A stretch of 36,780 nt of DNA. Source: Candidatus Opitulatrix roisinitermitis. Its GTDB lineage: Bacteria; Actinomycetota; Actinomycetes; Actinomycetales; Bifidobacteriaceae. The position numbers and the translations under genes are program-made. Location: NCBI GenBank assembly GCA_031288355.1, contig JAITRN010000028.1, forward strand, positions 1 through 36,780. The letters are read 5' to 3'. The notes below the pieces were generated by a model that saw only the letters and a list, made by a program, of their open reading frames with translations, did no database searches and was not told the origin of the DNA. Below are positions 13,149 through 36,780 of this stretch, in pieces. Positions within the stretch are counted from its first letter, which is position 1; the number at the start of each line of letters is the position of its first letter.

Positions 13149-14450
13149 TTAAATCCAACCCCTTAAATAAGGTTCAGGATTAACAAAATTGCCATTAACT
13201 AAAATTTCGAAATGGACATGACAGCCTGTCGCCCAACCTGTCGCTCCTTCGTAACCTATAACTTGACCTTTGCCAACTCTAGCCCCTGCGCCAACAGCAA
13301 ACGCTGTCAAATGGGAATATCTAGATTCATATCTAATTCCCCCTAATGTGCCATGGTCTATTATAACTTTATTATTCCCACCCTCATAAGCCACACTTGC
13401 TGCCCAAATAACTGTTCCGCCCGCTGAAGCATAAACTGGCGCCCCGCAAAATGACGCTAAATCATCGCCTGTGTGAGGCAGCCCTCCCCAAGTTGAAATT
13501 CCATAATTATCAAAATCTATAAAATCTCCGCCTAAAGGATAACCAAAAAAGCCTTTAGAAGGGGCTGGCCCTATGCCACCGCCCCCCGAAGGGCGCAACT
13601 TAGCTATTTGAGCTTCAAAATCAGCTGCTTGCTGCCTAACTCTTTGCTGTTGAACAGCTATTTCGCCTTTTCTAGATTCATATTCAGCTTTCCTAATAGT
13701 TAAAGTTTGCTGCAGAGAATGCAGTCTGGCTTGCTCTGAATCAGCCCTAGCTTTATCAGCTTTAGCAGCGGCTAAGGCTGCATCAGCGTCGCGCTTTAGA
13801 TTAGCCACTAATTCTTCAACAACTTTTATTCTCTCCTGCTTACTAAGTGACGTTGATTTTAGAATTGCTGCGTCATTTAATACTCTTGATGAAATTCTAT
13901 TTATAGCATCATTGACTTCAATACGGCGAATAAATTCGTCCACCGAAGTCGAGCCAATTATAACATCAAAATCCTCAAATTGGCTTTCCCCTCCCAGCTG
14001 TTCACGAGCCTGCTTAGCTATTGCAGCTCTAGCTTGATCCATAGTGTCCCCTGCTTTAGCAGCATCATGAACTATTTTTTTCTTTAAAGCCTCAGCTATA
14101 GATAAACGCTTTTTTAAATTCTCAGCTTTCTGTTTGTTTTGATTATAAGATTTATTAGCTTCTTTAGCGGCTTTATCTGCCCTGGGTATTTCAGACTTAG
14201 CGGTTATAAGATCAGAAATTATTTTTCCCAAATCTCCCTGTACAGATTCCAAAGCTGCATCTAAAGTGGCCGCTAAATTTTGAGCGTCCCTAGCCTTAGC
14301 CTCTAAATCAGCCAATTCATCAGAATAAGATAAAGAACAAAATGGCGTCCCAAAAAAGCCAAACGATAAAACTAAAACAAATGCATTAAATATACCAAAT
14401 AATCTAAATTTGCAACTAGCACTTCTATTAACACTCTTACTAGAATTCAT
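13149..14450 (-). CDS. Secreted coiled-coil M23 (LytM/EnvC-like) peptidoglycan peptidase
   Basis: Signal peptide, long Ala/Lys/Glu-rich coiled coil, then M23 motifs 'HTGDD' and 'HVHFEI'. Confidence 0.92.
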   Translation of the reverse strand: MNSSKSVNRSASCKFRLFGIFNAFVLVLSFGFFGTPFCSLSYSDELADLEAKARDAQNLAATLDAALESVQGDLGKIISDLITAKSEIPRADKAAKEANKSYNQNKQKAENLKKRLSIAEALKKKIVHDAAKAGDTMDQARAAIAKQAREQLGGESQFEDFDVIIGSTSVDEFIRRIEVNDAINRISSRVLNDAAILKSTSLSKQERIKVVEELVANLKRDADAALAAAKADKARADSEQARLHSLQQTLTIRKAEYESRKGEIAVQQQRVRQQAADFEAQIAKLRPSGGGGIGPAPSKGFFGYPLGGDFIDFDNYGISTWGGLPHTGDDLASFCGAPVYASAGGTVIWAASVAYEGGNNKVIIDHGTLGGIRYESRYSHLTAFAVGAGARVGKGQVIGYEGATGWATGCHVHFEILVNGNFVNPEPYLRGWI

Positions 14451-14537: not shown

Positions 14538-17500
14538 CTATGTTTTAATTTTTATTCGTGTGTCGTCACTAATACCGGTATTGGTGATTAGGAAAGTTCT
14601 AGTTCCAGCATTTTTAACAAATATAAAATGGTTATTCCAAACAGTGTTAGTAAACATCTGATCCGCAAGCGCAGTAGAATCAGTTAAATCAATACTTGAC
14701 CAATCAATATAATCATTTAATACAGCATAAGAAAACATATACCGCATATCAGTAGCCTGATTTCCGAAACCTTGAGGCAAACTAAAACCAGCTGGTAAAG
14801 TAACATACATAAACATCCAATGCATACTAGTAGCGACCTGGCCAAAGCCTTCTGGCAAAGAAAATATATCAGGCAAAGAAGCATGATAAAACATACAGCT
14901 CATGTCTGAAGCCTGGCTTCCAAAGCCTTGAGGAAGCGTAAATCCATTAGGCAACGAAGCGTAATAAAACATATAACTTATATTTGCCGCCTGGCTTCCA
15001 AAGCCTTGTGGAAACGTAAATCCGCTTTTCATAGAAGATTGAAAAAACATACTATTCATATTAGTAATAGCTGTAGTTTTCAGATTGGATAAATCGATTT
15101 CAACTCCGCCTGGCGCAGTTAAATTACTAAACAAATAAGAACTATCCGGATTAGCTAACACTCCTCCATCGCCCCCTATAACAATTTCTGTGCTATTTTT
15201 CACACAAGCTATTACACCCCACTCGCGATATTGAGACACATCTATTGGATTAGAACAAACAGGTGTTGCATTTTGGAAAGATATTTTAGTGATAGCATTT
15301 CTAGTCGGGTTAGTTATTCCCAAAAATTTAGTCGGATAATTATCTTCCGTTCTCAGCATTGTTTCAGTGCCTTTAACCCTAACATTAGAAGAATCACTAA
15401 TATCACTACCATTAATTAAAAAATTTCTACTATTCTCATTTTGCACAATCATAAACCAATTATTCCAAATAACATTAGTAAACATATGAGTTTTGCTAGC
15501 TCGAGAATTAGTTAAATCAGTACCAGACCAATCAATACTGCCGTTAAACAGAGCTCCTTCAAACATCCCGCTCCCATCTAAAACCGCGCTTCCAAAGCCT
15601 GCAGGAAAAGTTAATCCTCTAGGTAAAGAGGTGCTTTCAAACATACCGCTCATATTAACAATACTTGAAGTTTTCAGATTAGACAAATCAATATCAACAC
15701 TGCCAGAAAACGTTAAATTACTAAAAAGATAAGAACTATCAGGATTAGCTTCAACTCCGCCATCAGATCCTACAATTATCTCAGTGTTGTTTTTAACACA
15801 CCCTAAAATGCTTTTATCGCCATCATAAGATAAATCAGTCGGATTAGAACAAGTCGGTTTTGCTTTTTGAAAGGATATTTTAGTAATTTGAGCACGAGTG
15901 GGGCCAGGCATTCCCAAAAAAGTGACCGGATTAGATTTTTCAAATTTTAATACTGATTCTTCCCCTTCAATTACAATTCGAGAAGGGTCACTAATATTGC
16001 TATTAGTGATTAAAAAAGTTTTACTAGCAGAATTTTGCGCAAAAATAAAATAATTATTCCAAACAGTGTTAGTAAACATATCACTTTTGCTGGCCTTAGA
16101 AATTGAAAAATTAGTTTCCGACCAGTCAATATCACCATTTAAAGTAGCTCCGCTAAACATGCCATTCATATTATTAGCATTTCTAGCGAAATCTTCTCCA
16201 AAAATTTCATTTTGGGCAAAAACCCTATTAGCAAACATATATGCCATATTCTCTGATTTTGCCCCAAAGTCTTTCAGAAAAGCAAAATTATTTGGAATAG
16301 CGCTATTTGCAAAACCTTGATCCACTGCAAACGCCGCATAAGCAGAAAACACATTCTCTAAATTAGATATTGTTGAAAAATCCAAACTTTGTAAAGCGCT
16401 TGTGGAAAGATTAGAAAAAAGTCCATCAGCACTGTATGGATTTCCCCTAACCCCTAAAGGCTCACCAATAACTATTTCAGTTCCGTTTTGAACACATCCT
16501 AAAATACTTCCATTTTTGCTTGATGAAACATCAACAGGATTATTGCAAACCGGCAAAGTTTCTATAAAACTAATTTTAGTTATGTCTTTTCTATTTAAAT
16601 TAGGAATATTTAAAAAGTTAGTTGGCAAGACAAGATTCCCATTTGTTTCAATAGCCTCTCTAGCTAAATAAGGCGTTATATTTAGGATATTAGCTAATCT
16701 TGCTAAGAAAACTGCCATTTGTTCACGACTGACCCTTGTGCTCGGTCTATATGTACTGTCAGGATAACCCTGTGTTATATTATATTTCAAAAGCCAAGCA
16801 ACAGCTTCAGCCTGGCCATTATCACGCAATTTTTGGCTATCAGAAAACTCCTCCATATATGAATTTACTTCATCAGGAGAAATATAAGGCTGGCCAACAT
16901 ATTTATATATAAATTGAGCCATTTGTCCACGATTTACAACAACATTGGGCATATAAACAGCGTCTCCCGCTTTAGTACAAGCCTTATCTGGTTTGCCTTT
17001 TGCAGTGCATACATAACCTGTTGTTATTCCTGCAGCCGAAAGCCAATCTATATCGGCTTTATTTTGTTCTTTATCAGTCACATCTTTGAATTCGATAGGC
17101 TGACCGCTAGATGCTGGACTACCAGCTAATCTTTTGAAAAAACTAGCCATCTGACGTCGATTAACTGCCTTTTTAGGATTATAAGTTGTGGGAGTATAGC
17201 CCGTGGTTATGCCAAAAGCCGCTGCCCATTTAATTTTCGCTTGGCTTTCGGCTTCTAAACTAGAAATATCTGTAAAATTAATATTTGTAGCCGCAGCCCC
17301 AAGCGCTATCTGAACAGGCCTTGACTTATCAGATTCTGCTGGAGGGCTAATTTGGCCGCCTGATATTTGAACATAAACTTTAGCTCTATAGTTTGAAGTA
17401 AACATATTTTGAAAAGTTTGAGTTAAAACCAATTTAGAAATATCTTGAACAGTTTGAACTACCCTATCTATTCCATCCACTAATTCCACTTTATAAGTCC

Positions 17501-17753
17501 AATCACCAGAGGGTTCAGGAAACGGAGCAGCCCAAGATACTCCCAAAGAATCGCCATTTTGGGCAATTACAACATCTCTAGGTGCAGGCGGGATATCATT
17601 TGTATTAGCCTTAGCTAAAGGTGTTTGAAAATTTATACAAGCTGCTTGGAAACCAAAAACCACTATCAAACAAAAAATCATTTTCTTAAATAAACTTTTT
17701 GAACAAATAAAATTTTTATATCTATTTACTATATCGGTTTTTAAATTATTCAT
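14538..17753 (-). CDS. Array paralog 1: Fn3 + 3x SLH + three header/repeat/cap BspA-like modules (1071 aa)
   Basis: Fn3 'PPAPRDVVIAQNGDSLGVSWAAPFPEPSGDWTYKVEL'; SLH 'INFTDISSLEAESQAKIKWAAAFGITTGYTPTTYNPKKAVNRRQMASFFKRLAG' and two more; 'DLSNLKTSSIVNMSGMF' DUF285-like repeats; three copies of the 'ITKISF…C.NP.D.S…I..CV' header. Confidence 0.88.
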   Translation of the reverse strand: MNNLKTDIVNRYKNFICSKSLFKKMIFCLIVVFGFQAACINFQTPLAKANTNDIPPAPRDVVIAQNGDSLGVSWAAPFPEPSGDWTYKVELVDGIDRVVQTVQDISKLVLTQTFQNMFTSNYRAKVYVQISGGQISPPAESDKSRPVQIALGAAATNINFTDISSLEAESQAKIKWAAAFGITTGYTPTTYNPKKAVNRRQMASFFKRLAGSPASSGQPIEFKDVTDKEQNKADIDWLSAAGITTGYVCTAKGKPDKACTKAGDAVYMPNVVVNRGQMAQFIYKYVGQPYISPDEVNSYMEEFSDSQKLRDNGQAEAVAWLLKYNITQGYPDSTYRPSTRVSREQMAVFLARLANILNITPYLAREAIETNGNLVLPTNFLNIPNLNRKDITKISFIETLPVCNNPVDVSSSKNGSILGCVQNGTEIVIGEPLGVRGNPYSADGLFSNLSTSALQSLDFSTISNLENVFSAYAAFAVDQGFANSAIPNNFAFLKDFGAKSENMAYMFANRVFAQNEIFGEDFARNANNMNGMFSGATLNGDIDWSETNFSISKASKSDMFTNTVWNNYFIFAQNSASKTFLITNSNISDPSRIVIEGEESVLKFEKSNPVTFLGMPGPTRAQITKISFQKAKPTCSNPTDLSYDGDKSILGCVKNNTEIIVGSDGGVEANPDSSYLFSNLTFSGSVDIDLSNLKTSSIVNMSGMFESTSLPRGLTFPAGFGSAVLDGSGMFEGALFNGSIDWSGTDLTNSRASKTHMFTNVIWNNWFMIVQNENSRNFLINGSDISDSSNVRVKGTETMLRTEDNYPTKFLGITNPTRNAITKISFQNATPVCSNPIDVSQYREWGVIACVKNSTEIVIGGDGGVLANPDSSYLFSNLTAPGGVEIDLSNLKTTAITNMNSMFFQSSMKSGFTFPQGFGSQAANISYMFYYASLPNGFTLPQGFGSQASDMSCMFYHASLPDIFSLPEGFGQVATSMHWMFMYVTLPAGFSLPQGFGNQATDMRYMFSYAVLNDYIDWSSIDLTDSTALADQMFTNTVWNNHFIFVKNAGTRTFLITNTGISDDTRIKIKT

Positions 17754-17783
17754 AATCTCTGCCTTTATATTTACTAAAAATAA

Positions 17784-17812
17784 CCTATACTATAACTTTA
17801 ACATTAACTCAA
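17784..17812 (-). promoter_or_regulatory. Predicted promoter of 14538-17753 (-35 TTGAGT, 17 bp, -10 TATAGG)
   Basis: Read on minus strand; conserved in position and sequence with the intergenic regions upstream of three other array genes; adjoins an interrupted A/T tract. Confidence 0.5.
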
Positions 17813-17890
17813 AAGAAAAAAAATGATTTTTGCAATTCGTTTATAAAAAAATAATTATAGTTCTCGAAATATAATTATAAAAAGTTCTTT

Positions 17891-17947
17891 CTAAACTTTT
17901 ATCTGCGCTCTATCATCCAGGGCCTCGCCTGCTATTAAAGCGTCTTT
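17891..17947 (-). pseudogene. Orphan 3'-end relic of the ~830-aa array subfamily (KDALIAGEALDDRAQIKV*)
   Basis: The intergenic minus strand encodes KDALIAGEALDDRAQIKV*, matching the common C-terminus SKDALIAGGAPADRVQIKV* of the five ~830-aa paralogs. It is not in frame with the upstream gene's stop at 17971. Confidence 0.85.
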
Positions 17948-17970
17948 TCTATCAAAGCGCCTATTTTATT

Positions 17971-20900
17971 TTAACTTCCTTTAACTTTAACATTTGCAGC
18001 AGTAGCTTCAGTCCCATTAATTAACCAATCAACCGAACCTTGATTTTTAGCTAATACAAAGTGTCCCTGCCAAGATGTCTGAATAAACATATTGTATTTT
18101 TCAACACCTGTTTTATTTGTAAAGTCAACACCAGACCAATCAATATCGCCGTTCAACAAGGCATCAGCAAAAATAAGACTCATGTCCAAAGCTACATTTC
18201 CAAAACCCTGAGGCAAGGAAAAATCGCTTGCAAAAGCGACTCCTTGAAACATGGTGATCATACTAGTTGCCACGCTTCCGAAGCCCTGAGGCAGGGAAAA
18301 CCCACTTGGAAAAGAGGCGCTGTCAAACATAGCATTCATATTAGTTGCTGCGCTTCCGAAGCCTGCGGGAAATGAAAATCCACTTAAAAAAACGACATCT
18401 ACAAACATAGCACTCATATTAGTCGCTGCGCTTCCAAAACCTTGAGGCAAGGAAAAATTAGTTGATAAAGTGGTACTATAAAACATATAACTTACGTCTA
18501 AAGCAACAGCACCAAATCCAACAGGCAAGGAAAATCCACTTCGCAAAGTAGTATCATGAAACATATAACTTATATCTAAAGCAACAGCGCCAAATCCTGT
18601 GGGCAGGGAAAAATTGTTTGGTAATGAAGTCTGCTCAAATATATGACTCATATTAACTACCTTGCTTCCGAAGCCTGCGGGAAATGAAAATCCACTTGGC
18701 AAAGTTGACATATAAAACATGCCTTGCATATTAGTTACCACGCTTCCGAAGCCTGCGGGTAACGAAAATCCACTTGGCAACAAAGTAAACATAAACATAT
18801 AATTCATATTTGTAGCAACAGCGCCAAATCCTGCGGGCAATGAAAAATCGCTATTTAATTTTGTCTGCTGAAATGTGCGATTCATACTAGTCGCCAGGCT
18901 TCCGAAGCCTGCGGGTAACAAAAATCCACTTGGCAAAATGGCATTTTGAAACATACCATCCATATCAGTTGCCACGCTTCCGAAGCCTGAAGGAAATGAA
19001 AATCCGCTTGGCAACGAAACCTGACCAAACATAAATTTCATATTGGTTGCCATAGAACCAAATCCAACAGGCAAGGAAAATCCACTTGGCAAAGCAGAGT
19101 CATAAAACATATCCAGCATATTAGTAACCACGCTTCCGAAGCCCTGAGGCAGAGAAAGGCCGCGAATTAACCGAGTATTTGTAAACATATATGACATATC
19201 AGTAATGTCTGAAGTTCTCAAATTAGATAAATCAATACTAGCACCGTTAGGGGAAAGTGATAAATTACTAAAAAGCCAAGAACTTATAGGATTAGCTTCA
19301 ACTCCGCCATCAGACCCTATAATTATTTCAGTGTCATTTTCAACACATCCTAAAATGCTCTTGTCTCCATCAGAAGATACATCAGTCGGATTAGAACAGG
19401 TCGGTTTTGTTTTTTGAAAAGATATTTTAGTAATCTGAGACCGAGCCGGGCCAGATATTCCTAAAAAAGTGACCGGATTAATACTTTCCATTTTCAATAT
19501 TGATTCTCCCCCTTTAACTCTAATTCGAGAAGGGTCGCCAATATTGCTATTAGTGACTAAAAATATTCTGCTAGCCTCATTTTGCACAAGTATAAAATAG
19601 TCATTCCAAATAACGCCAGTAAACATATCAGTTTTGCTGGCCGTAGAAGTTAAAAAATTAGTTTCTGACCAGTCAATATCGCCATTTAAAGTAGCTCCGC
19701 TAAACATAGCATTCATATTAATGACATTTTTAGCAAAATCTTCCTCAAAAATTCTATCATGAGCAAAAATTCTATTAGCAAACATATATGCCATATTCTC
19801 TGAATTCACCCCAAAGCCTTTCGGAAACACAAAATTGCTTGGAATAACACTATTGACAAAACCTTGATCCACCGCAAACGCTGCATAAGATGAAAAAACA
19901 TTTCCCAAATTAGATATTACTGAAAAATCCAAACTCTGCAAAGCGCTTGTGGAAAGATTAGAAAAAAGCCCATCCGCGCTATATGGATTGCCCTTCACCC
20001 CTAAAGGCTCACCAATAACAATTTCAGTGTTGTTTTTAACGCATCCTAAAATACTTCCATTTTTACTTGATGAAACATCAACAGGATTATTGCAAACCGG
20101 CAAAGTTTCTATAAAACTAATTTTAGTTATGTTTTTTCTATTTAAATTTGAAATTCCCAAAAAGTTAGTTGGTAAAACAAGATTGCCATTTGTTTCAATG
20201 GATTCTCTAGCCAAATAAGGCGTTATATTTAAAATATTGGCTAATCTTGCTAAGAAAACTGCCATTTGTTCACGACTGACTCTTGTAGTTGGTCTATATG
20301 TACTGTCAGGATAACCCTGCGTTATATTATATTTCAAAAGCCAAGCAACGGCTTCGGCCTGGCCATTATCGCGCAATTTTTGGCTATCAGAAAACTCCTC
20401 CATATATGAATTTACTTCATCAGGAGAAATATAAGGCTGGCCAACATATTTATATATAAATTGAGCCATTTGTCCGCGATTTACAACAGAATTAGGCATA
20501 TAAACGGCGTCTCCCGCTTTAGTACAAGCCTTGTCTGGTTTGCCTTTTGCAGTGCATACATAACCTGTTGTTATTCCTGCAGCCGAAAGCCAATCTATAT
20601 CGGCTTTATTTTGTTCTTTATCGGTCACATCTTTGAATTTAATAGGCTGACCACTAGGTGCCGGTCCGCCAGCTAACCTTTTGAAGAAACTAGCCATCTG
20701 ACGTCGATTAACCGCCTTTTTAGGATTATAAGTTGTGGAAGTATAGCCCGTGGTTATGCCAAAAGCTGCTGCCCATTTAATTTTCGCTTGGCTTTCAGCC
20801 TCTAAACTAGAAATATCTTTAAAATTAATGTTTGTAGCCGCAGCTCCAAGCGCTATCTGAACGGGCCTTGACTTGTCAGATTCTGCTGGCGAACTAATTT

Positions 20901-21303
20901 GGCCACCTGATATTTGAACATAAACCTTAACTTTATAATTTGAAGTAAATAAATTTGCAAATGTTTGCGTTAAAACTGATTTAGAAATATTTTGAGCAGT
21001 TTGAACTACTCTATCTATTTCATCCACTAAATCCACTTTATAAGTCCAATCACCAAGCGGTTCAGGAGACGGCGGAGACCAGGATACTCCGAGAGAATAA
21101 TTGCTGATCCGCTCAATTACAACATTTTCGGGTGCAGGAGGGGCATCATTCATGCTAGCTTGAACTAATGGAGTTTGAAAACCTACACCAATTGTTTGGA
21201 AAACAAAAGCTACCACTAAACAAAAAATTGCTTTTTTAAATAGACTTTTAAAATAAACAAAATTTTTATATCTATTTACTATATTCGTTTTTAAACTATT
21301 CAT
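17971..21303 (-). CDS. Array paralog 2: Fn3 + 3x SLH + two modules, the second with thirteen 26-aa repeats (1110 aa)
   Basis: N-terminal half nearly identical to paralog 1; C-terminal tandem 'LPSGFSLPAGFGSVATNMxxMFxxxx'. Confidence 0.88.
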   Translation of the reverse strand: MNSLKTNIVNRYKNFVYFKSLFKKAIFCLVVAFVFQTIGVGFQTPLVQASMNDAPPAPENVVIERISNYSLGVSWSPPSPEPLGDWTYKVDLVDEIDRVVQTAQNISKSVLTQTFANLFTSNYKVKVYVQISGGQISSPAESDKSRPVQIALGAAATNINFKDISSLEAESQAKIKWAAAFGITTGYTSTTYNPKKAVNRRQMASFFKRLAGGPAPSGQPIKFKDVTDKEQNKADIDWLSAAGITTGYVCTAKGKPDKACTKAGDAVYMPNSVVNRGQMAQFIYKYVGQPYISPDEVNSYMEEFSDSQKLRDNGQAEAVAWLLKYNITQGYPDSTYRPTTRVSREQMAVFLARLANILNITPYLARESIETNGNLVLPTNFLGISNLNRKNITKISFIETLPVCNNPVDVSSSKNGSILGCVKNNTEIVIGEPLGVKGNPYSADGLFSNLSTSALQSLDFSVISNLGNVFSSYAAFAVDQGFVNSVIPSNFVFPKGFGVNSENMAYMFANRIFAHDRIFEEDFAKNVINMNAMFSGATLNGDIDWSETNFLTSTASKTDMFTGVIWNDYFILVQNEASRIFLVTNSNIGDPSRIRVKGGESILKMESINPVTFLGISGPARSQITKISFQKTKPTCSNPTDVSSDGDKSILGCVENDTEIIIGSDGGVEANPISSWLFSNLSLSPNGASIDLSNLRTSDITDMSYMFTNTRLIRGLSLPQGFGSVVTNMLDMFYDSALPSGFSLPVGFGSMATNMKFMFGQVSLPSGFSFPSGFGSVATDMDGMFQNAILPSGFLLPAGFGSLATSMNRTFQQTKLNSDFSLPAGFGAVATNMNYMFMFTLLPSGFSLPAGFGSVVTNMQGMFYMSTLPSGFSFPAGFGSKVVNMSHIFEQTSLPNNFSLPTGFGAVALDISYMFHDTTLRSGFSLPVGFGAVALDVSYMFYSTTLSTNFSLPQGFGSAATNMSAMFVDVVFLSGFSFPAGFGSAATNMNAMFDSASFPSGFSLPQGFGSVATSMITMFQGVAFASDFSLPQGFGNVALDMSLIFADALLNGDIDWSGVDFTNKTGVEKYNMFIQTSWQGHFVLAKNQGSVDWLINGTEATAANVKVKGS
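18157..19170 (-). repeat. Intragenic tandem repeat, 78 bp (26 aa) unit, 13 copies
   Basis: Codons 712-1049 of the 1110-aa ORF divide exactly into thirteen 26-aa units from LIRGLSLPQGFGSVVTNMLDMFYDSA to FASDFSLPQGFGNVALDMSLIFADAL. Confidence 0.95.
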
Positions 21304-21334
21304 AATTCCTGCCTTTATATTTAACTAAAAATAA

Positions 21335-21363
21335 CTTATATTACAACTTTAACATTAATTCAA
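21335..21363 (-). promoter_or_regulatory. Predicted promoter of 17971-21303 (-35 TTGAAT, 17 bp, -10 TATAAG) with adjacent A8/T8 tract
   Basis: Minus-strand hexamers conserved between array intergenic regions. Confidence 0.5.
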
Positions 21364-21438
21364 AAAAAACGATTTTTGCAATTCGTTTATAACAAAAGAA
21401 TTATGGCCCTCAAAAAAAATATAATTATAAAAAATTTT

Positions 21439-23931
21439 CTAAACCTTTATCTGCACTCTATCAGCCGGAGCTCCGCCTGCTATCAAAGCATCTTTGGAAG
21501 CTTCGTTTTTCACTAAAACCACATGATCATTCCACACCGCATCAGTGAAAAGATCTTTAAGATTCGTCCCTTTATCAGTTAAATCAGCCGCTGACCAATC
21601 AATATTATAAGATAAATTCACATTTATAAAAGTGGAAGAAATGGAATAATTTATTCCAAAATCATTTGGCAAAACAAAAGGTCCTTGAAAAATTGCACCA
21701 TTAAAAATACGGTCTCCTGAACCCGCGTTCTGAAAAAAGCCAACAGGCAAGGTCCAGCCGCTCGCTATAGTGGCCTTCTCAAACATATTTTCTTTCAAAT
21801 CTTCCCAAGGAGGATAACTTTCATAATTTAATTTAAAAGTTGGAACTTTAAAATCAGCCGGAATAACAGCTTCTGAAAACATTCCTTGACCATCTGAGTA
21901 TGAACAAAAATCATCTGGCAAAGTGAAACCACCAGGAATTACCACTTTTGAAAGCATATATTCTACATGAGCATATTTACCAAAATTCTCAGGAAATGAA
22001 TAATTTTCTGGGAAAACAGCGCCTTTAAACATATTGTCCATTAAAATATCTCTACGCTGTATAGTATCTTCTGTCGAACCAAAATTTTTCGGAAAAACTA
22101 AGCTAGACGGAATTTTAGAATAAGCAAAAGCATAATACAAAAGGGATCTGTGCGTACTCCCTGACGAAACAGTAGCAAAATTCTTGGGCAAATGAAAGCC
22201 GGCTGGAAAATTAACTTTTACGAAAATATATGACAAATTGACAACATTCATACCAAAATCATCTGGGAAAGAAAAGCCGGGCGCAAAAACAGTTGAATCA
22301 AACATATAGCTCATAATAGCAGATCCATATTTTCCATTATTTTTAGTCATCAAAAACTGTGGCAAGGAAAAATCCGCCGGGAGTGTTGCTGACCTGAACA
22401 TGCCACTTGCAATTTCGCAATCCCAGGCAAATTTAGCTGGAAAAATTATGCCTGATGGAAAAATAACATTATCAAACATACTCAACGCACTTTTAGCGTT
22501 TTGGCCAAAATTGTCTGGAAAAATTATACTATTTATTTTGCCAAAATGATAAAACATATTATCCAACCATCTTGTAAAATGAACATTCAAATGCCTAAGA
22601 TTTAGCGAAACCCCTAAATTGGAATTAAAATTGGCAAAGAGGTATCCATTGTTAAAACTGTCTACCATAACTCCGCCTATTTGACCAATAGTTATTTCGC
22701 TCCCGTTCACACAAGCCAAAATCGCGCCTGTGTCACCATAAGAAACATCTATTGGAGAAGAACAAACTGGTAAATAATCTATAAATTCAATTTTGGTTAT
22801 AGCGCTTCTGGCAACTCCTGTATTCAAAAAACCTTCTCTAAAATTTTCAATTTTTAAAAATGGCGCAACTGCTAAATTCTGTGATGAATAAGCCATAAAT
22901 TTAGCCATCTGAACTCGCGAAACAGTGTTATTTGGTTTATATTGGCCGTCAGCATAGCCCGAAATAATTGAATTTTTTATAAGACAGGCCACAGCCTGCT
23001 TTTGCTCGTCATTGGTCAATTTAGAAGAATCGGTAATCTTATCTAAATATTTGTTAATATCAAGATCAGAGAATGGCGATCCAAAATATCTGTAAATCTC
23101 TAAAGCTAATTGAGAACGAGTTATAAATTTGCTGCCATAAAAAATTTTATCACCTTTTTTAGTACAAGCTTTATATGGTTTGCCTTTGGCCGTGCAATCA
23201 TATCCCTGAATAATTCCTAGGCTAACAGCCCATAAAATAGCATTTTTATGTTCATTATCAGCTAAATCCACAAAAGGGTTCTCTACTTCAGCCACAGAAG
23301 GCTTGCCAGCTGAGCGATAAATAAATGAAGCCATTTGTTCGCGGCTGACTTTCCCGCTAGGGTGATAGCCCCCATCTTGATAACCTGTGGTTATTCCGTA
23401 GTTGGCTATCCAATTAATTTGCTCTTGAGAATCAGCTGGCTGATCACTTATATCATTGAATTGATCCCTATCAACAGCGTTCAAATAAATATTTACCGTA
23501 TCGTTTGTTTCAAGCGGTATACCATAAGGGAAAGACCACGCTGTTGCTTTATAATTGCCTGCCACTACATTATTAAAAGTATATTCAAATACATTTCCAT
23601 CTAACGTTCCGGACTGGTAAAAAGTTTCTCTGTAGAAAGAATTACTTAAATTAAACTGAATGCTATCTTGACCATAACCTGGCGGAGTTTGAAGATCTAT
23701 TTTAATTGAATTACTGCCGATTTTTGTTATTGAAACCGCAAAGTCATCAACCGCTTTTGGATTAGCCACTTTTGAATTAACTTCACTTAAACTACCCTCA
23801 TTTAAATTAATTGCGTTCGCTTCTGATGCAGACACTGCACCAAATAATGAAAAACAAAAAACCGCTATTAAGCAAAAAGCTAATTTTTTGAATAAACTTT
23901 TTGAACAAAAACTATCTTTATATTTATTCAC
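21439..23931 (-). CDS. Array paralog 3: SLH/BspA-like surface protein (830 aa), GTG start after loss of the ancestral ATG
   Basis: SLH x3 ('FNDISDQPADSQEQINWIANYGITTGYQDGGYHPSGKVSREQMASFIYRSAG'), header 'ITKIEFIDYLPVCSSPIDVS...ILACV', cap 'NIDWSAADLT...SKDALIAGGAPADRVQIKV'. Confidence 0.85.
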   Translation of the reverse strand: MNKYKDSFCSKSLFKKLAFCLIAVFCFSLFGAVSASEANAINLNEGSLSEVNSKVANPKAVDDFAVSITKIGSNSIKIDLQTPPGYGQDSIQFNLSNSFYRETFYQSGTLDGNVFEYTFNNVVAGNYKATAWSFPYGIPLETNDTVNIYLNAVDRDQFNDISDQPADSQEQINWIANYGITTGYQDGGYHPSGKVSREQMASFIYRSAGKPSVAEVENPFVDLADNEHKNAILWAVSLGIIQGYDCTAKGKPYKACTKKGDKIFYGSKFITRSQLALEIYRYFGSPFSDLDINKYLDKITDSSKLTNDEQKQAVACLIKNSIISGYADGQYKPNNTVSRVQMAKFMAYSSQNLAVAPFLKIENFREGFLNTGVARSAITKIEFIDYLPVCSSPIDVSYGDTGAILACVNGSEITIGQIGGVMVDSFNNGYLFANFNSNLGVSLNLRHLNVHFTRWLDNMFYHFGKINSIIFPDNFGQNAKSALSMFDNVIFPSGIIFPAKFAWDCEIASGMFRSATLPADFSLPQFLMTKNNGKYGSAIMSYMFDSTVFAPGFSFPDDFGMNVVNLSYIFVKVNFPAGFHLPKNFATVSSGSTHRSLLYYAFAYSKIPSSLVFPKNFGSTEDTIQRRDILMDNMFKGAVFPENYSFPENFGKYAHVEYMLSKVVIPGGFTLPDDFCSYSDGQGMFSEAVIPADFKVPTFKLNYESYPPWEDLKENMFEKATIASGWTLPVGFFQNAGSGDRIFNGAIFQGPFVLPNDFGINYSISSTFINVNLSYNIDWSAADLTDKGTNLKDLFTDAVWNDHVVLVKNEASKDALIAGGAPADRVQIKV

Positions 23932-26525: not shown

Positions 26526-26565
26526 AATCGCTATCCTTTATTGGCCTTTATATTTACTAATAATC

Positions 26566-26593
26566 ATTATACTATGATTTAACAATAATTCAA
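26566..26593 (-). promoter_or_regulatory. Predicted promoter of 23970-26525 (-35 TTGAAT, 16 bp, -10 TATAAT) with adjacent A10/T10 tract
   Basis: Consensus -10; aligns with the other array promoters. Confidence 0.55.
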
Positions 26594-26669
26594 AAAAAAA
26601 ACAATTTTTGGAATTTATTTATAACAAAAATATTATTAATCCATAAAAAATAAATTGCGAAAAACTTTC

Positions 26670-29180
26670 CTAAACCTTTATCTGCACACTATCGGCTGGA
26701 GCTCCGCCAGCTATCAAAGCATCTTTAGAAGCCTGATTTTTCACTAAAACCACATGACCGTTCCACACTACGTCAGTAAAAAGATTTTTCAGATTTGGCC
26801 CTTTATCGGTTAAATCAGCCGCCGACCAATCAATATTATAAGATAAATTTACACTTTTAAAAATTGACCGAAGAGGATAATTTACTCCAAAATCGCTCGG
26901 CAAAACAAAAGGACCTTGAAAAATAGAGCCGTTAAAAAAAGAGAACCCTGACTTTGCACTCTCAAAAAAGCCAACTGGTAAAGTCCAGCCATCCGCTATA
27001 GTGGCCCTTTCAAACATATTATCTTTCGGGTCATATCCCTCTTGGTAACTTTCATAACTGAATCTAAAAGTTGGGACTCTAAAATCGGCTGGAATAACAG
27101 CATTTGAAAACATTCTTGGACCTCGGCAATATGAACAAAAATCATCCGGCAAAGTAAAGCCTCTGGGAATTGTCACGTCTGAAAACATATAATCTACCAA
27201 AGCATGCTCACCAAAATTCGCCGGAAATAAATAATTTTCTGGAAAAACGGTCCCATGAAATATATTGCGCATATAAGAACCTGGAGCAAAATTATCTGGA
27301 AAAACTAGACTAGACGGAATTGAAGAATAGGCAAAAGCATAAGATAAATTAAGTTCCCCTCTTTTGGAAAAAGCGTCAAAATTTTTCGGCAGATGAAAAC
27401 CTGCCGGAAAATTGACATCTGCAAACATGTATGCCATGCTTGAAACGTTTGTGCCAAAATCATCTGGCAAGGAAAATCCTGGCGCAAAATCAGCTGATTC
27501 AAACATATGCTCCATACTAACACCCGCACTAACATTAAAAACTTTTTGATTTAGGATACCCTTCGGAAACGAAAAATTCGTAGGAATTGCGGCTGATTTA
27601 AACATGCCGTCTACCCGTTCGCAATTTTGACCAAATTTAACTGGAAAAACAAAACCTGGTGGAAAAACGGCATTCTCAAACATATATGACATATTAAAAG
27701 CATTTTCGCCAAAATCATCTGAAAAACTTATACTATTTATTTTGCCAAAATTATAAAACATATGATCCAGCGATTTTGCAAAATCAACATTTAAATGCAT
27801 AAGATCTAATGAAATTCCTGAATCAGGATTAAAATTAGAAAACAGATATTGACTATCATAGTTATCTGGCATAACTCCACCTATTTGTCCAATAGTTATT
27901 TCACCACCATTAACGCAAGCTAAAATTGCCCCTGTATCACTATAAGAAACATCTATCGGGGAAAAGCAATTCGGCAAATAGTCTATAAATTTAATACTAG
28001 TTATAGCACTTCTGGCAACTCCTGTATTCAAAAAATTAACTGGATCAGAATCTTCAATTTTTAAAAATGGCACAACTCCTAAATCTTGTGATGAATAGGC
28101 TATAAATTTAGCCATCTGAGCTCTTGAAACGGTGTTGTTCGGTTTATATTCCCCATCTGGATAGCCCGAAACAATTGAATCTTTTAAAAGATATGCCACA
28201 GCCTGCTTTTGTTCAGCGGTAGTCAATTTAGCAGAATCAGTAATTTTCTCTAAATACACATTACTAACACCCCGCGACCCAAAATATCTGTAAATTTCTA
28301 AAGCTAATTGCACGCGAGTTATAAATTTGCTGCCAGAAAAAACCTTGTCGCCTTTTTTGGTGCAAGCTTTATATGGTTTGCCTTTAGCTGTACAGTCATA
28401 TCCCTGCACAATTCTTAAACTCGCCGCCCACAAAACAGCGTTTTTATGTTCATTGTTAGCCAAATCCACAAAAGGATTTTTTATTCCGGAAACAGATGGG
28501 CTGCCAGCTGAACGGTAAATAAATGAAGCCATTTGTTCGCGGCTGACTTTTGTGCTAGGATGATAGCCTCCGTCTTGATAACCTGTGGTTATTCCATAAC
28601 TAGCTATCCAATTAATCTGCTCTTGGGAGTCCGCTGGCTGAGTGCTTATATCATTAAATTGCGGTCTTGTGACAGTGTTCAAATAAATACTTAATGAATC
28701 TGCTGATTCGTAGTACATTCGATTCCTTTCATCAGGACTGGAAGAGCTTACCCATGCTTTATAATTACCTGTCATTACATTGCTAAAAGTATATTCAAAT
28801 ACATTTCCATATAACGTTGCTGACCGATAAAAATTACTTTGGTAGAGAGAATTATTCAGATAAAAGTAAATACTTGTTTGATCATAATCTGACGGAGTAT
28901 GAAAATTTATTTTAACTGAATTGCTGCCAATTTTTGTTATTGAAACCGAAAATTCGTCAGCCGCTTTTGAATTAGCCTCACTTGAACTAGTCGCACTTGA
29001 ACTAGCCGCAGTTGAATTAACCATATTCAAATTAACAGCATTCGCTTTGGGCGCAGATACTGCGCTAAATGAAGAAAAGCAAAAGATGGCTATTAAACAA
29101 AAAGCTAATTTTTTGAATACATTTTTTGGATAAAAAAAGCCTTTATATTTATTTATTGAATTTATTTTTGGATTGTTCAT
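26670..29180 (-). CDS. Array paralog 5: SLH/BspA-like surface protein (836 aa)
   Basis: Same architecture as paralogs 3-4. Confidence 0.88.
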   Translation of the reverse strand: MNNPKINSINKYKGFFYPKNVFKKLAFCLIAIFCFSSFSAVSAPKANAVNLNMVNSTAASSSATSSSEANSKAADEFSVSITKIGSNSVKINFHTPSDYDQTSIYFYLNNSLYQSNFYRSATLYGNVFEYTFSNVMTGNYKAWVSSSSPDERNRMYYESADSLSIYLNTVTRPQFNDISTQPADSQEQINWIASYGITTGYQDGGYHPSTKVSREQMASFIYRSAGSPSVSGIKNPFVDLANNEHKNAVLWAASLRIVQGYDCTAKGKPYKACTKKGDKVFSGSKFITRVQLALEIYRYFGSRGVSNVYLEKITDSAKLTTAEQKQAVAYLLKDSIVSGYPDGEYKPNNTVSRAQMAKFIAYSSQDLGVVPFLKIEDSDPVNFLNTGVARSAITSIKFIDYLPNCFSPIDVSYSDTGAILACVNGGEITIGQIGGVMPDNYDSQYLFSNFNPDSGISLDLMHLNVDFAKSLDHMFYNFGKINSISFSDDFGENAFNMSYMFENAVFPPGFVFPVKFGQNCERVDGMFKSAAIPTNFSFPKGILNQKVFNVSAGVSMEHMFESADFAPGFSLPDDFGTNVSSMAYMFADVNFPAGFHLPKNFDAFSKRGELNLSYAFAYSSIPSSLVFPDNFAPGSYMRNIFHGTVFPENYLFPANFGEHALVDYMFSDVTIPRGFTLPDDFCSYCRGPRMFSNAVIPADFRVPTFRFSYESYQEGYDPKDNMFERATIADGWTLPVGFFESAKSGFSFFNGSIFQGPFVLPSDFGVNYPLRSIFKSVNLSYNIDWSAADLTDKGPNLKNLFTDVVWNGHVVLVKNQASKDALIAGGAPADSVQIKV

Positions 29181-34343: not shown

Positions 34344-36068
34344 TTATTCCACTTTACAAGACTCACCAGGTATTAATATATCTTCATTTGTAGCACCAGT
34401 TATAGAATTTATAAAAAGATTTCTATACGTATCATTTTTAACATATACACAATGCTTATTCCAAACAACATTTCCAAACAATTCATTAACATCTGGAATA
34501 ATTCCACCTTTACCGTCTGATTTAATCACAAAATCAGTATCTGACCAATCAATACTAGTTTTCAGATTTGCTGTCATAAACATACTTTTCATAATTTGTG
34601 ATTCAGCTGCAAAATCTTTAGGAAGTTCAACTAAGCCTAATGTAGACCACTCAAACATATGATCGGTCACTCTAGTTTTAGAAGCATTTAATTTTTCCAA
34701 GTCTAATGAGACTCCGGCGCTATTACCTAACTTACTAAATAAATACGCACTACTATAAATATTTGCCACAACCCCGCCATAAGCTCCAACAACTATTTCA
34801 TCTCCATCCACACAGGCATAAATTGCGTTTTGGAAACCATCTTCGGACACATCCACTCGATTATCGCACTTCGGCAAAGTATTTATAAAAGAAATTTTAG
34901 TTATACTAGAACGCGATTTACCTGTATCTAGAAAATCTGAATCAATTTCTTTTGCTTCTCTTAAATAAGGTGTTGTGCCTAATTTACCGGCTATTCTTTT
35001 CAAAAATTGGGTCATCTGAATCCGAGAAACTCTTCTTTTAGGTCTAAATGTTTTGTCCTCATATCCTGTAGTTATGCTCTCTTTAATTAACCAAGCAATT
35101 GGCTTTTGCTGATCCAAAGGAATTTCGTCTTTGTCAACCAGCGAATCAAGATACTCAGTTACTTCATCACTAGAAATTTCTGGCGTTAAAGCCAATTTAT
35201 ACAAAAATTGCGCCATATTCCCGCGGCTAGTTTCTCCATCAGGCAAAAAATAATGATCATCAGCGGCTTGGCAAATAGAATTAGGCACGCCTTTGCCTGT
35301 GCATGTATAGCCTTGCAATATTCCTTTGGATGACAGCCAGTCAATAGCTCCTTCATGAACCCCAAATTTGCCAGAATCTAAAAATTTCACTGGTTTATCA
35401 CCTTCTGATATTTCAGGTTTGCCAAAAGCTCTATATAAAAAAGAGGCCATTTCTTTGCGCTGCACAATATCTCTTGGCCTAAAATCGCCGCCTGACCCAA
35501 GAGCAATTTTATAAGATGAAGCCCAATTTAGCGAATCTTTTTCATCATCATTCAGCAAATAAAAATCGTCAAATGTTTTAGCATCTCCTGGACTAAAAGC
35601 AATATGGCCGTCATTGGTCTCTTTCTCACTTAAAGGAAAAACGTCTGACTCTTTTGGGGGACTTTCTTGACCGCCTGCTTCAGCATAAACTCTGGCTGAA
35701 TAAAAGCCTGCCGGAACATTAGAAAATATACAACTATTTTTAACATCTTTAATAGGTACACACACTTTTTCAGAAATCGCTGTAGAACTTGCTTTCTCCT
35801 CCCAAACGCTACCAAAATTATTTAATAACTGAACTTTATATTCAAACGATTCAGCTAAATTAGATGGTGGCCCCCATTTTACGACTTCCTGTTTTGTTTC
35901 AGAATTAGCACTTACACTAGCCCAACTTGGCGGATTTGGAGCTTCATCAGCCTTCGCTGGCGGCGCAAAGCTGGCAAAAACTAAACTAACTATCAGCCCG
36001 AAACTGACCAAAAACATATATGCAGACATATATGCAGTTCTACTAGTTCTATTTCTTAAATTATTCAT
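34344..36068 (-). CDS. Array paralog 8: short Fn3 + 3x SLH + one minimal module (start corrected from 36089)
   Basis: 'MNNLRNRTSRTAYMSAYMFLVSFGLIVSLVFASFAPPAKA' signal peptide preceded by AAAGGT; Fn3 'PNPPSWASVSANSETKQEVVKWGPPSN'; SLH repeats; header 'ITKISFINTLPKCDNRVDVS...IYACV'. Confidence 0.85.
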   Translation of the reverse strand: MNNLRNRTSRTAYMSAYMFLVSFGLIVSLVFASFAPPAKADEAPNPPSWASVSANSETKQEVVKWGPPSNLAESFEYKVQLLNNFGSVWEEKASSTAISEKVCVPIKDVKNSCIFSNVPAGFYSARVYAEAGGQESPPKESDVFPLSEKETNDGHIAFSPGDAKTFDDFYLLNDDEKDSLNWASSYKIALGSGGDFRPRDIVQRKEMASFLYRAFGKPEISEGDKPVKFLDSGKFGVHEGAIDWLSSKGILQGYTCTGKGVPNSICQAADDHYFLPDGETSRGNMAQFLYKLALTPEISSDEVTEYLDSLVDKDEIPLDQQKPIAWLIKESITTGYEDKTFRPKRRVSRIQMTQFLKRIAGKLGTTPYLREAKEIDSDFLDTGKSRSSITKISFINTLPKCDNRVDVSEDGFQNAIYACVDGDEIVVGAYGGVVANIYSSAYLFSKLGNSAGVSLDLEKLNASKTRVTDHMFEWSTLGLVELPKDFAAESQIMKSMFMTANLKTSIDWSDTDFVIKSDGKGGIIPDVNELFGNVVWNKHCVYVKNDTYRNLFINSITGATNEDILIPGESCKVE

Positions 36069-36240
36069 AAAATCGACCTTTTCTATCAAATTCTTTATAC
36101 TATTAGTACAAGCTTAGCAGAAAAAAATATTTTACAAAATTATAACACAAATATTAGTTTTATAAAAAACAAATTAGCTTTATAAAAAACGAATATTATG
36201 TAAAAAAGAAAATGTTTATACTAAATTTTGGTATATTATA

Positions 36241-36780
36241 TTAAATTTTAGTATAGCGTTTTAATGTGGCAAAAGACGCCACAGCTGATAAAATCACACT
36301 AGCGCCTATTAAAATAGGTGTTATAACTAAAACATCATAAACTGTCACAAAAGCTATCCAATGAATTGAAGAACCTAGCCAGTCATCTATAAAAAACTTA
36401 ACCACTAAAAATAAACCGCCAACAGCCAAAAGAGAACCTATCAAAGAAGCAATTACCCCTTCTAACAAAAAAGGCAGCATAATAAAAGAATTAGAAGCGC
36501 CCACCAGCCTCATAATTTCTGTTTCTCGGCGGCGAGACTGAGCCGATAATCTTATAGTCGTGGTAATTAAAAGCACTGCTGCTAAAAGCATAACTATAGC
36601 TAAACTAGCTGACATGGCGCTAGCAGCATTTAGTGTTCTAAATAAAGGCTCAAAAAGTTGTCTTTGGTCTCTAACTTCAGCCACGCCTGGCCGCCCTGTC
36701 AGAACATCAGCAATCACCTGATATTTTTCAGGATTTTTCAATTTCAGACGCATAATAACTTGCATATCATCAGGCGTGAG
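36241..36780 (-). CDS. ftsX: Cell division protein FtsX, C-terminal part, truncated by window end
   Basis: ORF open to the window edge (…LTPDDMQVIMRLKLKNPEKYQVIADVLTGRPGVAEVRDQRQLFEPLFRTLNAAS…); four-TM topology, 'SAQSRRRETEIMRLVGASNSFIMLPFLLEGVIASLIGS'. Confidence 0.92.
   Translation of the reverse strand, partial: LTPDDMQVIMRLKLKNPEKYQVIADVLTGRPGVAEVRDQRQLFEPLFRTLNAASAMSASLAIVMLLAAVLLITTTIRLSAQSRRRETEIMRLVGASNSFIMLPFLLEGVIASLIGSLLAVGGLFLVVKFFIDDWLGSSIHWIAFVTVYDVLVITPILIGASVILSAVASFATLKRYTKI

Follow-up and report, generated by a model that had tools for sequence, protein, structure and literature searches.

The closest described case of a gene array built in this way is that of the yeast CUP1 repeats, which are tandem arrays arising through unequal nonhomologous recombination (PMC4232551). 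The locus described below resembles CUP1 in that a segment appears to have been copied in tandem, with a joint other than an in-register crossover of homologous copies. It differs from CUP1 in that the array is bacterial and encodes surface proteins, that its junction is old and decayed and holds a filler that looks templated, and that it is known from one genome rather than from a population series. Other reports on duplication breakpoints that we found concern mostly eukaryotic cases. Within the same genus, the Bifidobacteriaceae MAGs Roe453_bin58 and Roe453_bin66 share the architecture of SLH domains and repeats, in both clustered and single genes (another Roe453 bin derives from the termite Roisinitermes ebogoensis; PMC11707648), but no relative examined has an array between ftsX and the M23 peptidase gene, nor the junction.

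The window, which is the whole stretch of 36,780 nucleotides that was analysed, belongs to genome G000 (also the source of contigs C34, C40, C55 and C65), and was compared with three genomes of the same genus, G001, G002 (source of contig C50) and G003. It carries an array of SLH-domain genes at 14538-36089, between an M23 peptidase gene and ftsX (flanks 13149-14450 and 36241-36780). The array comprises one 581-aa gene, five ~830-aa genes, one 1110-aa gene and one 1071-aa gene. The 1110-, 1071- and ~830-aa genes match SLH (PF00395) at 70-81 bits, against a Pfam cut-off of 20.8, and ftsX matches the NCBIfam model FtsX_actino (5.9e-70). The PARCEL/BspA-type repeat model TIGR02167 stayed below its cut-off of 30, with a best score of 14.2 bits in the 1071-aa gene.

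Table 1. Features at and around the junction, in window coordinates
Feature	Coordinates	Strand	Evidence
1071-aa sister gene, apparently without the terminal module of the 1110-aa gene	14538..17753	minus	DNA tree 100/100; C-terminus matches an internal module of the 1110-aa gene
Putative duplicated segment, downstream copy: relic tail, spacer and N-terminal two thirds of the 1071-aa gene	15660..17947	minus	2293-bp blastn alignment, 86.6%
Relic of an ~830-class 3' end (KDALIAGEALDDRAQIKV, then stop)	17891..17947	minus	48/57 to the tail of gene 21439; controls at most 34
Putative junction filler; with base 17947 reads GCTTTGATAGAA, a second, shorter ~830 tail copy	17948..17958	minus	exact 12-mer match to 24020-24009
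AATAAAATAGGC after the 1110-aa gene's stop, probably the native 3' flank of an 1100-class gene end	17959..17970	minus	resembles ATTAAAAGAGGA in C65
1110-aa SLH-domain surface-protein-like gene, terminal module SVDWLINGTEATAANVKVKGS, then stop	17971..21303	minus	Pfam SLH E=1.7e-20; terminus common to C65 and many G003 genes
Upstream copy of the putative duplicated segment, from the tail of ~830 gene 21439 across the spacer into the 1110-aa gene (N-terminal part)	19210..21495	minus	alignment
~830-aa gene, nearest relative of the relic by its 3' end	21439..23931	minus	tail comparison with controls

Behind the 1110-aa gene lies a 57-nt relic of the 3' end of an ~830-class gene, which we take, with a probability of about 0.8 and from sequence comparison, to be the left edge of a tandem duplication of an ~830 tail, a spacer with its promoter and an 1100-class gene. 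The preliminary description had placed an ~830-subfamily tail on the minus strand at exactly this position, and both the identity and the coordinates proved correct. Read from 17947 to 17891, the relic agrees in 48 of 57 bases with the closing 57 nt of gene 21439-23931 and in 44-46 with the tails of the remaining ~830 paralogs, of contig C40 and of two G002 copies. Alignment to the 3' ends of the ~830 paralogs, which that description had called for, is therefore beyond chance (44-48/57): the best of 1500 random 57-mers from the non-array part of the window reached 34/57, and the best of 1500 shuffles 31/57. BLAST of the relic against the window gave an E-value of 1e-14. Having the nearest 3' end, gene 21439 is the probable source of the relic.

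Between the relic and gene 21439 there are four synonymous changes and five in amino-acid-changing codons, whereas the tails of genes 21439 and 29329 differ by three synonymous changes and no amino-acid-changing one. The protein-changing decay therefore sits on the side of the relic, and the tail of gene 21439 has stayed constrained. This relaxed constraint relative to the intact copies marks the relic as a pseudogene fragment.

Similarity continues well past the relic. A genome search with 17700-17975 returned a single contiguous match, to 21252-21495 at 84%, spanning relic, spacer and gene start, and direct comparison by blastn gave an unbroken alignment of 2293 bp at 86.6%, from 17947 to about 15660 against 21495 to about 19210. 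It begins at the first base of the relic (17947 paired with 21495), goes about 2.2 kb past the relic's stop, crossing the spacer and entering the 1071-aa gene, a continuation that the preliminary description had missed, and ends with a sharp drop in the identity profile near 15660. What the relic runs into is thus homologous to what follows the intact source, and gene 21439 precedes the 1110-aa gene in the same arrangement as the relic precedes the 1071-aa gene. The relic tail with its spacer is 87.6% identical to the spacer between gene 21439 and the 1110-aa gene, versus 74.8-76.3% to two spacers between ~830 genes. The gap before the 1071-aa gene measures 217 bp against 135 bp for the homologous gap, and the excess of 82 bp corresponds roughly to the tail and the junction. 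Altogether, the 57 bp of the relic probably form the front end of a duplicated segment extending into the 1071-aa gene.

In a DNA tree, the 1071- and 1110-aa genes are sisters (100/100), and both the genes of contig C90 and the G002 gene fall outside the pair; a protein tree built on the N-termini (first 470 residues) did not recover it, with a non-significant 80/61 against. In their 3' thirds the two genes lack collinearity, and the 3' flanks differ, so that the 1071-aa gene must have been truncated or reshuffled later, presumably losing its terminal module. The flanks also count against the duplication, which would predict matching flanks behind the 1110- and 1071-aa genes if the downstream copy took the ancestral 3' flank with it and neither copy changed afterwards. 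Elsewhere in the family, a 1028-aa gene of G002 ends at an early stop, with the family's terminal module (LVNWLIDGTGASSGNVKIK, then stop) just behind it (L161 1397-1470), and on contig C90 a 2504-aa paralog of the 1100 class adjoins a phoH-like gene (L061 1537-9051).

Between the stop codon of the 1110-aa gene and the relic lie two short pieces. The 11-12 bases directly behind the stop (AATAAAATAGGC) resemble ATTAAAAGAGGA, found behind the same KVKGS-stop terminus in contig C65, and are probably the native 3' flank of an 1100-class gene, a match that is short and weak alone and from which the flanks of the G003 genes differ. The second piece, the 12-mer GCTTTGATAGAA at 17958, matches exactly the tail of gene 23970 and ends on the relic's first base. 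A duplicated tail string just upstream of the relic had already been noticed in the preliminary description; it is borne out by GCTTTGATAG at 17958-17949, and no 12-base match to the ~830 tails turned up among 5000 shuffles or among 5000 random 24-mers. Judged by these matches, the 12-bp filler is probably a second ~830-tail fragment. It could alternatively come from the leader of the 581-aa gene, which shares the 13-mer TTTGATAGAAAAG; within the window, the 10-mer GCTTTGATAG is otherwise confined to the five ~830 tails. Microhomology or template-switch joining can leave a second short tail piece at a joint. We rejected a homologous crossover in register between the 3' ends of genes, since the 1110-aa gene keeps its complete terminus and stop ahead of the relic.

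From this we infer the following order of events. On the minus strand, the ancestral locus would have held an ~830-class gene, a promoter-bearing spacer, one 1100-class gene and the M23 gene. The segment copied in tandem would have taken in the final 57 bp of the ~830 gene, the spacer and the 1100-class gene, its upstream breakpoint falling within the ~830 tail. At the joint, one 1100-class copy, today's 1110-aa gene, would end with some 11 bp of 3' flank of its own and be followed by the cut-off ~830 tail; beyond that tail would come the spacer and gene of the second copy, today's 1071-aa gene. The 12-bp filler from an ~830 tail would point to joining by microhomology or template switching and not to a crossover in register. 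Afterwards, the tail would have decayed unconstrained, and the two genes would have grown further apart as 3' repeat modules were lost or shuffled. The unbroken homology together with the sister genes makes it probable that the segment was duplicated in tandem; since the filler matches the tail type of gene 23970 and not that of gene 21439, more than one step may have been involved. The pre-duplication arrangement was not found in any genome examined, G001, G002 and G003 being without an array at the site.

The same relic, spacer and sister genes would result if a whole ~830 gene, its spacer and an 1100-class gene had been duplicated together, and the second ~830 gene had subsequently either been lost save for its final 57 bp or given way to an 1110-class gene. 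Whole ~830 units were indeed duplicated elsewhere in the array, where the stretches of tail and spacer at 26526 and 29181 share 88.7% identity. We nevertheless consider this course unlikely, as it requires an additional deletion ending within the tail; moreover, only ~830 tail pieces were found between the 1110-aa gene's stop and the relic, and no genome was found with an ~830 gene in such a position. The preliminary description had proposed a replacement of this kind, leaving a scar. The scar left by unequal recombination within the array is upheld, and the lost ~830 gene swapped for an 1110-class gene is superfluous: nothing at the relic needs it, and its loss would be an extra step without independent support. 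Relatives, in which an intact ~830 gene was sought at this position, could not decide the matter because G001-G003 have no array at the ftsX/M23 site.

That the relic was retained for a function, whether to terminate transcription, to encode a small peptide or to extend the 1110-aa protein by frameshifting, is very improbable. A weak A/T hairpin overlaps its stop, but a terminator search over the relic returned no terminator-like site and folding of the region gave ordinary energies (z-scores -0.43 and -0.58); terminator, structured-RNA and promoter readings yielded nothing convincing. Its reading frame contains no ATG, GTG or TTG start, has a stop codon just upstream and differs from the frame of the 1110-aa gene, which closes it to frameshift and small-ORF readings, and the excess of amino-acid-changing differences likewise argues against a retained function. 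Hardly credible at all is an assembly or binning artefact, even in a metagenome-assembled genome rich in near-identical repeats. The assembly does break at ~830 tails elsewhere, with C40 starting near one and C55 beginning and ending in one, but the relic is unlike every known tail and has its own decayed sequence, which a mis-join of intact copies would not yield; its divergence also resembles that of the flanking spacer.

In G001, G002 and G003, ftsX and the M23 gene are adjacent. The G002 spacer between them (L109, C50) can be aligned with the outer flanks on either side of the array (128/132 and 58/63) and contains a stretch like the array spacers (49/56 to 26526-26672), so that G002 may have lost an array here rather than never having had one, the stretch perhaps being a deletion scar. 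Behind a DinB-type polymerase gene (recognised by eye), G002 carries a 573-aa gene like the 581-aa gene, followed by an ~830 gene; in G000, the ~830 gene behind dinB (contig C34) has the leader of the 581-aa gene (107/108; 36051-36200; L159 1690-1960). AAACTAATATTTGTGTTATAA is common to the arrayless G002 site, the 581-gene leader and the leader of the C34 ~830 gene, a possible recombination site. A second ~830 array is likely in G000, with C34 as start piece, C55 as a single unit and C40 as end piece, broken by the assembly at repeats (L017, L002, L159). Upstream of the PBP gene, G000 has a tmRNA gene versus an ~830 tail in G002 (L159 5139-5489; L068 1-196). With the tail present twice at the junction, and array pieces at chromosomal sites that differ among close relatives (at ftsX/M23, behind dinB and upstream of a PBP gene), the ~830 tail (with GCTTTGATAG) might be a preferred breakpoint for repeated SLH-gene rearrangement in the lineage, a proposal that we regard as quite doubtful.

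G000 and G002 are 93-97% identical at the DNA level in PBP, dinB, ftsX and phoH, and 86% in M23, against 75% between the 581-aa gene and its 573-aa counterpart, an example consistent with SLH genes evolving faster than PBP, dinB, ftsX and phoH. Because of this faster evolution, the duplication, whose copies are 86.6% alike, may have occurred before or after the split of G000 and G002.

The junction is polarised, and shows a surface-protein array growing by the copying of a segment that ends inside a neighbouring gene. The genome, from a Bifidobacteriaceae lineage, is small, and the case is a clean example and not a new process. Finding the relic of a gene tail next to a different gene does not in itself mean that a gene was lost; here, the stub is what the ordinary growth of such gene arrays leaves behind.
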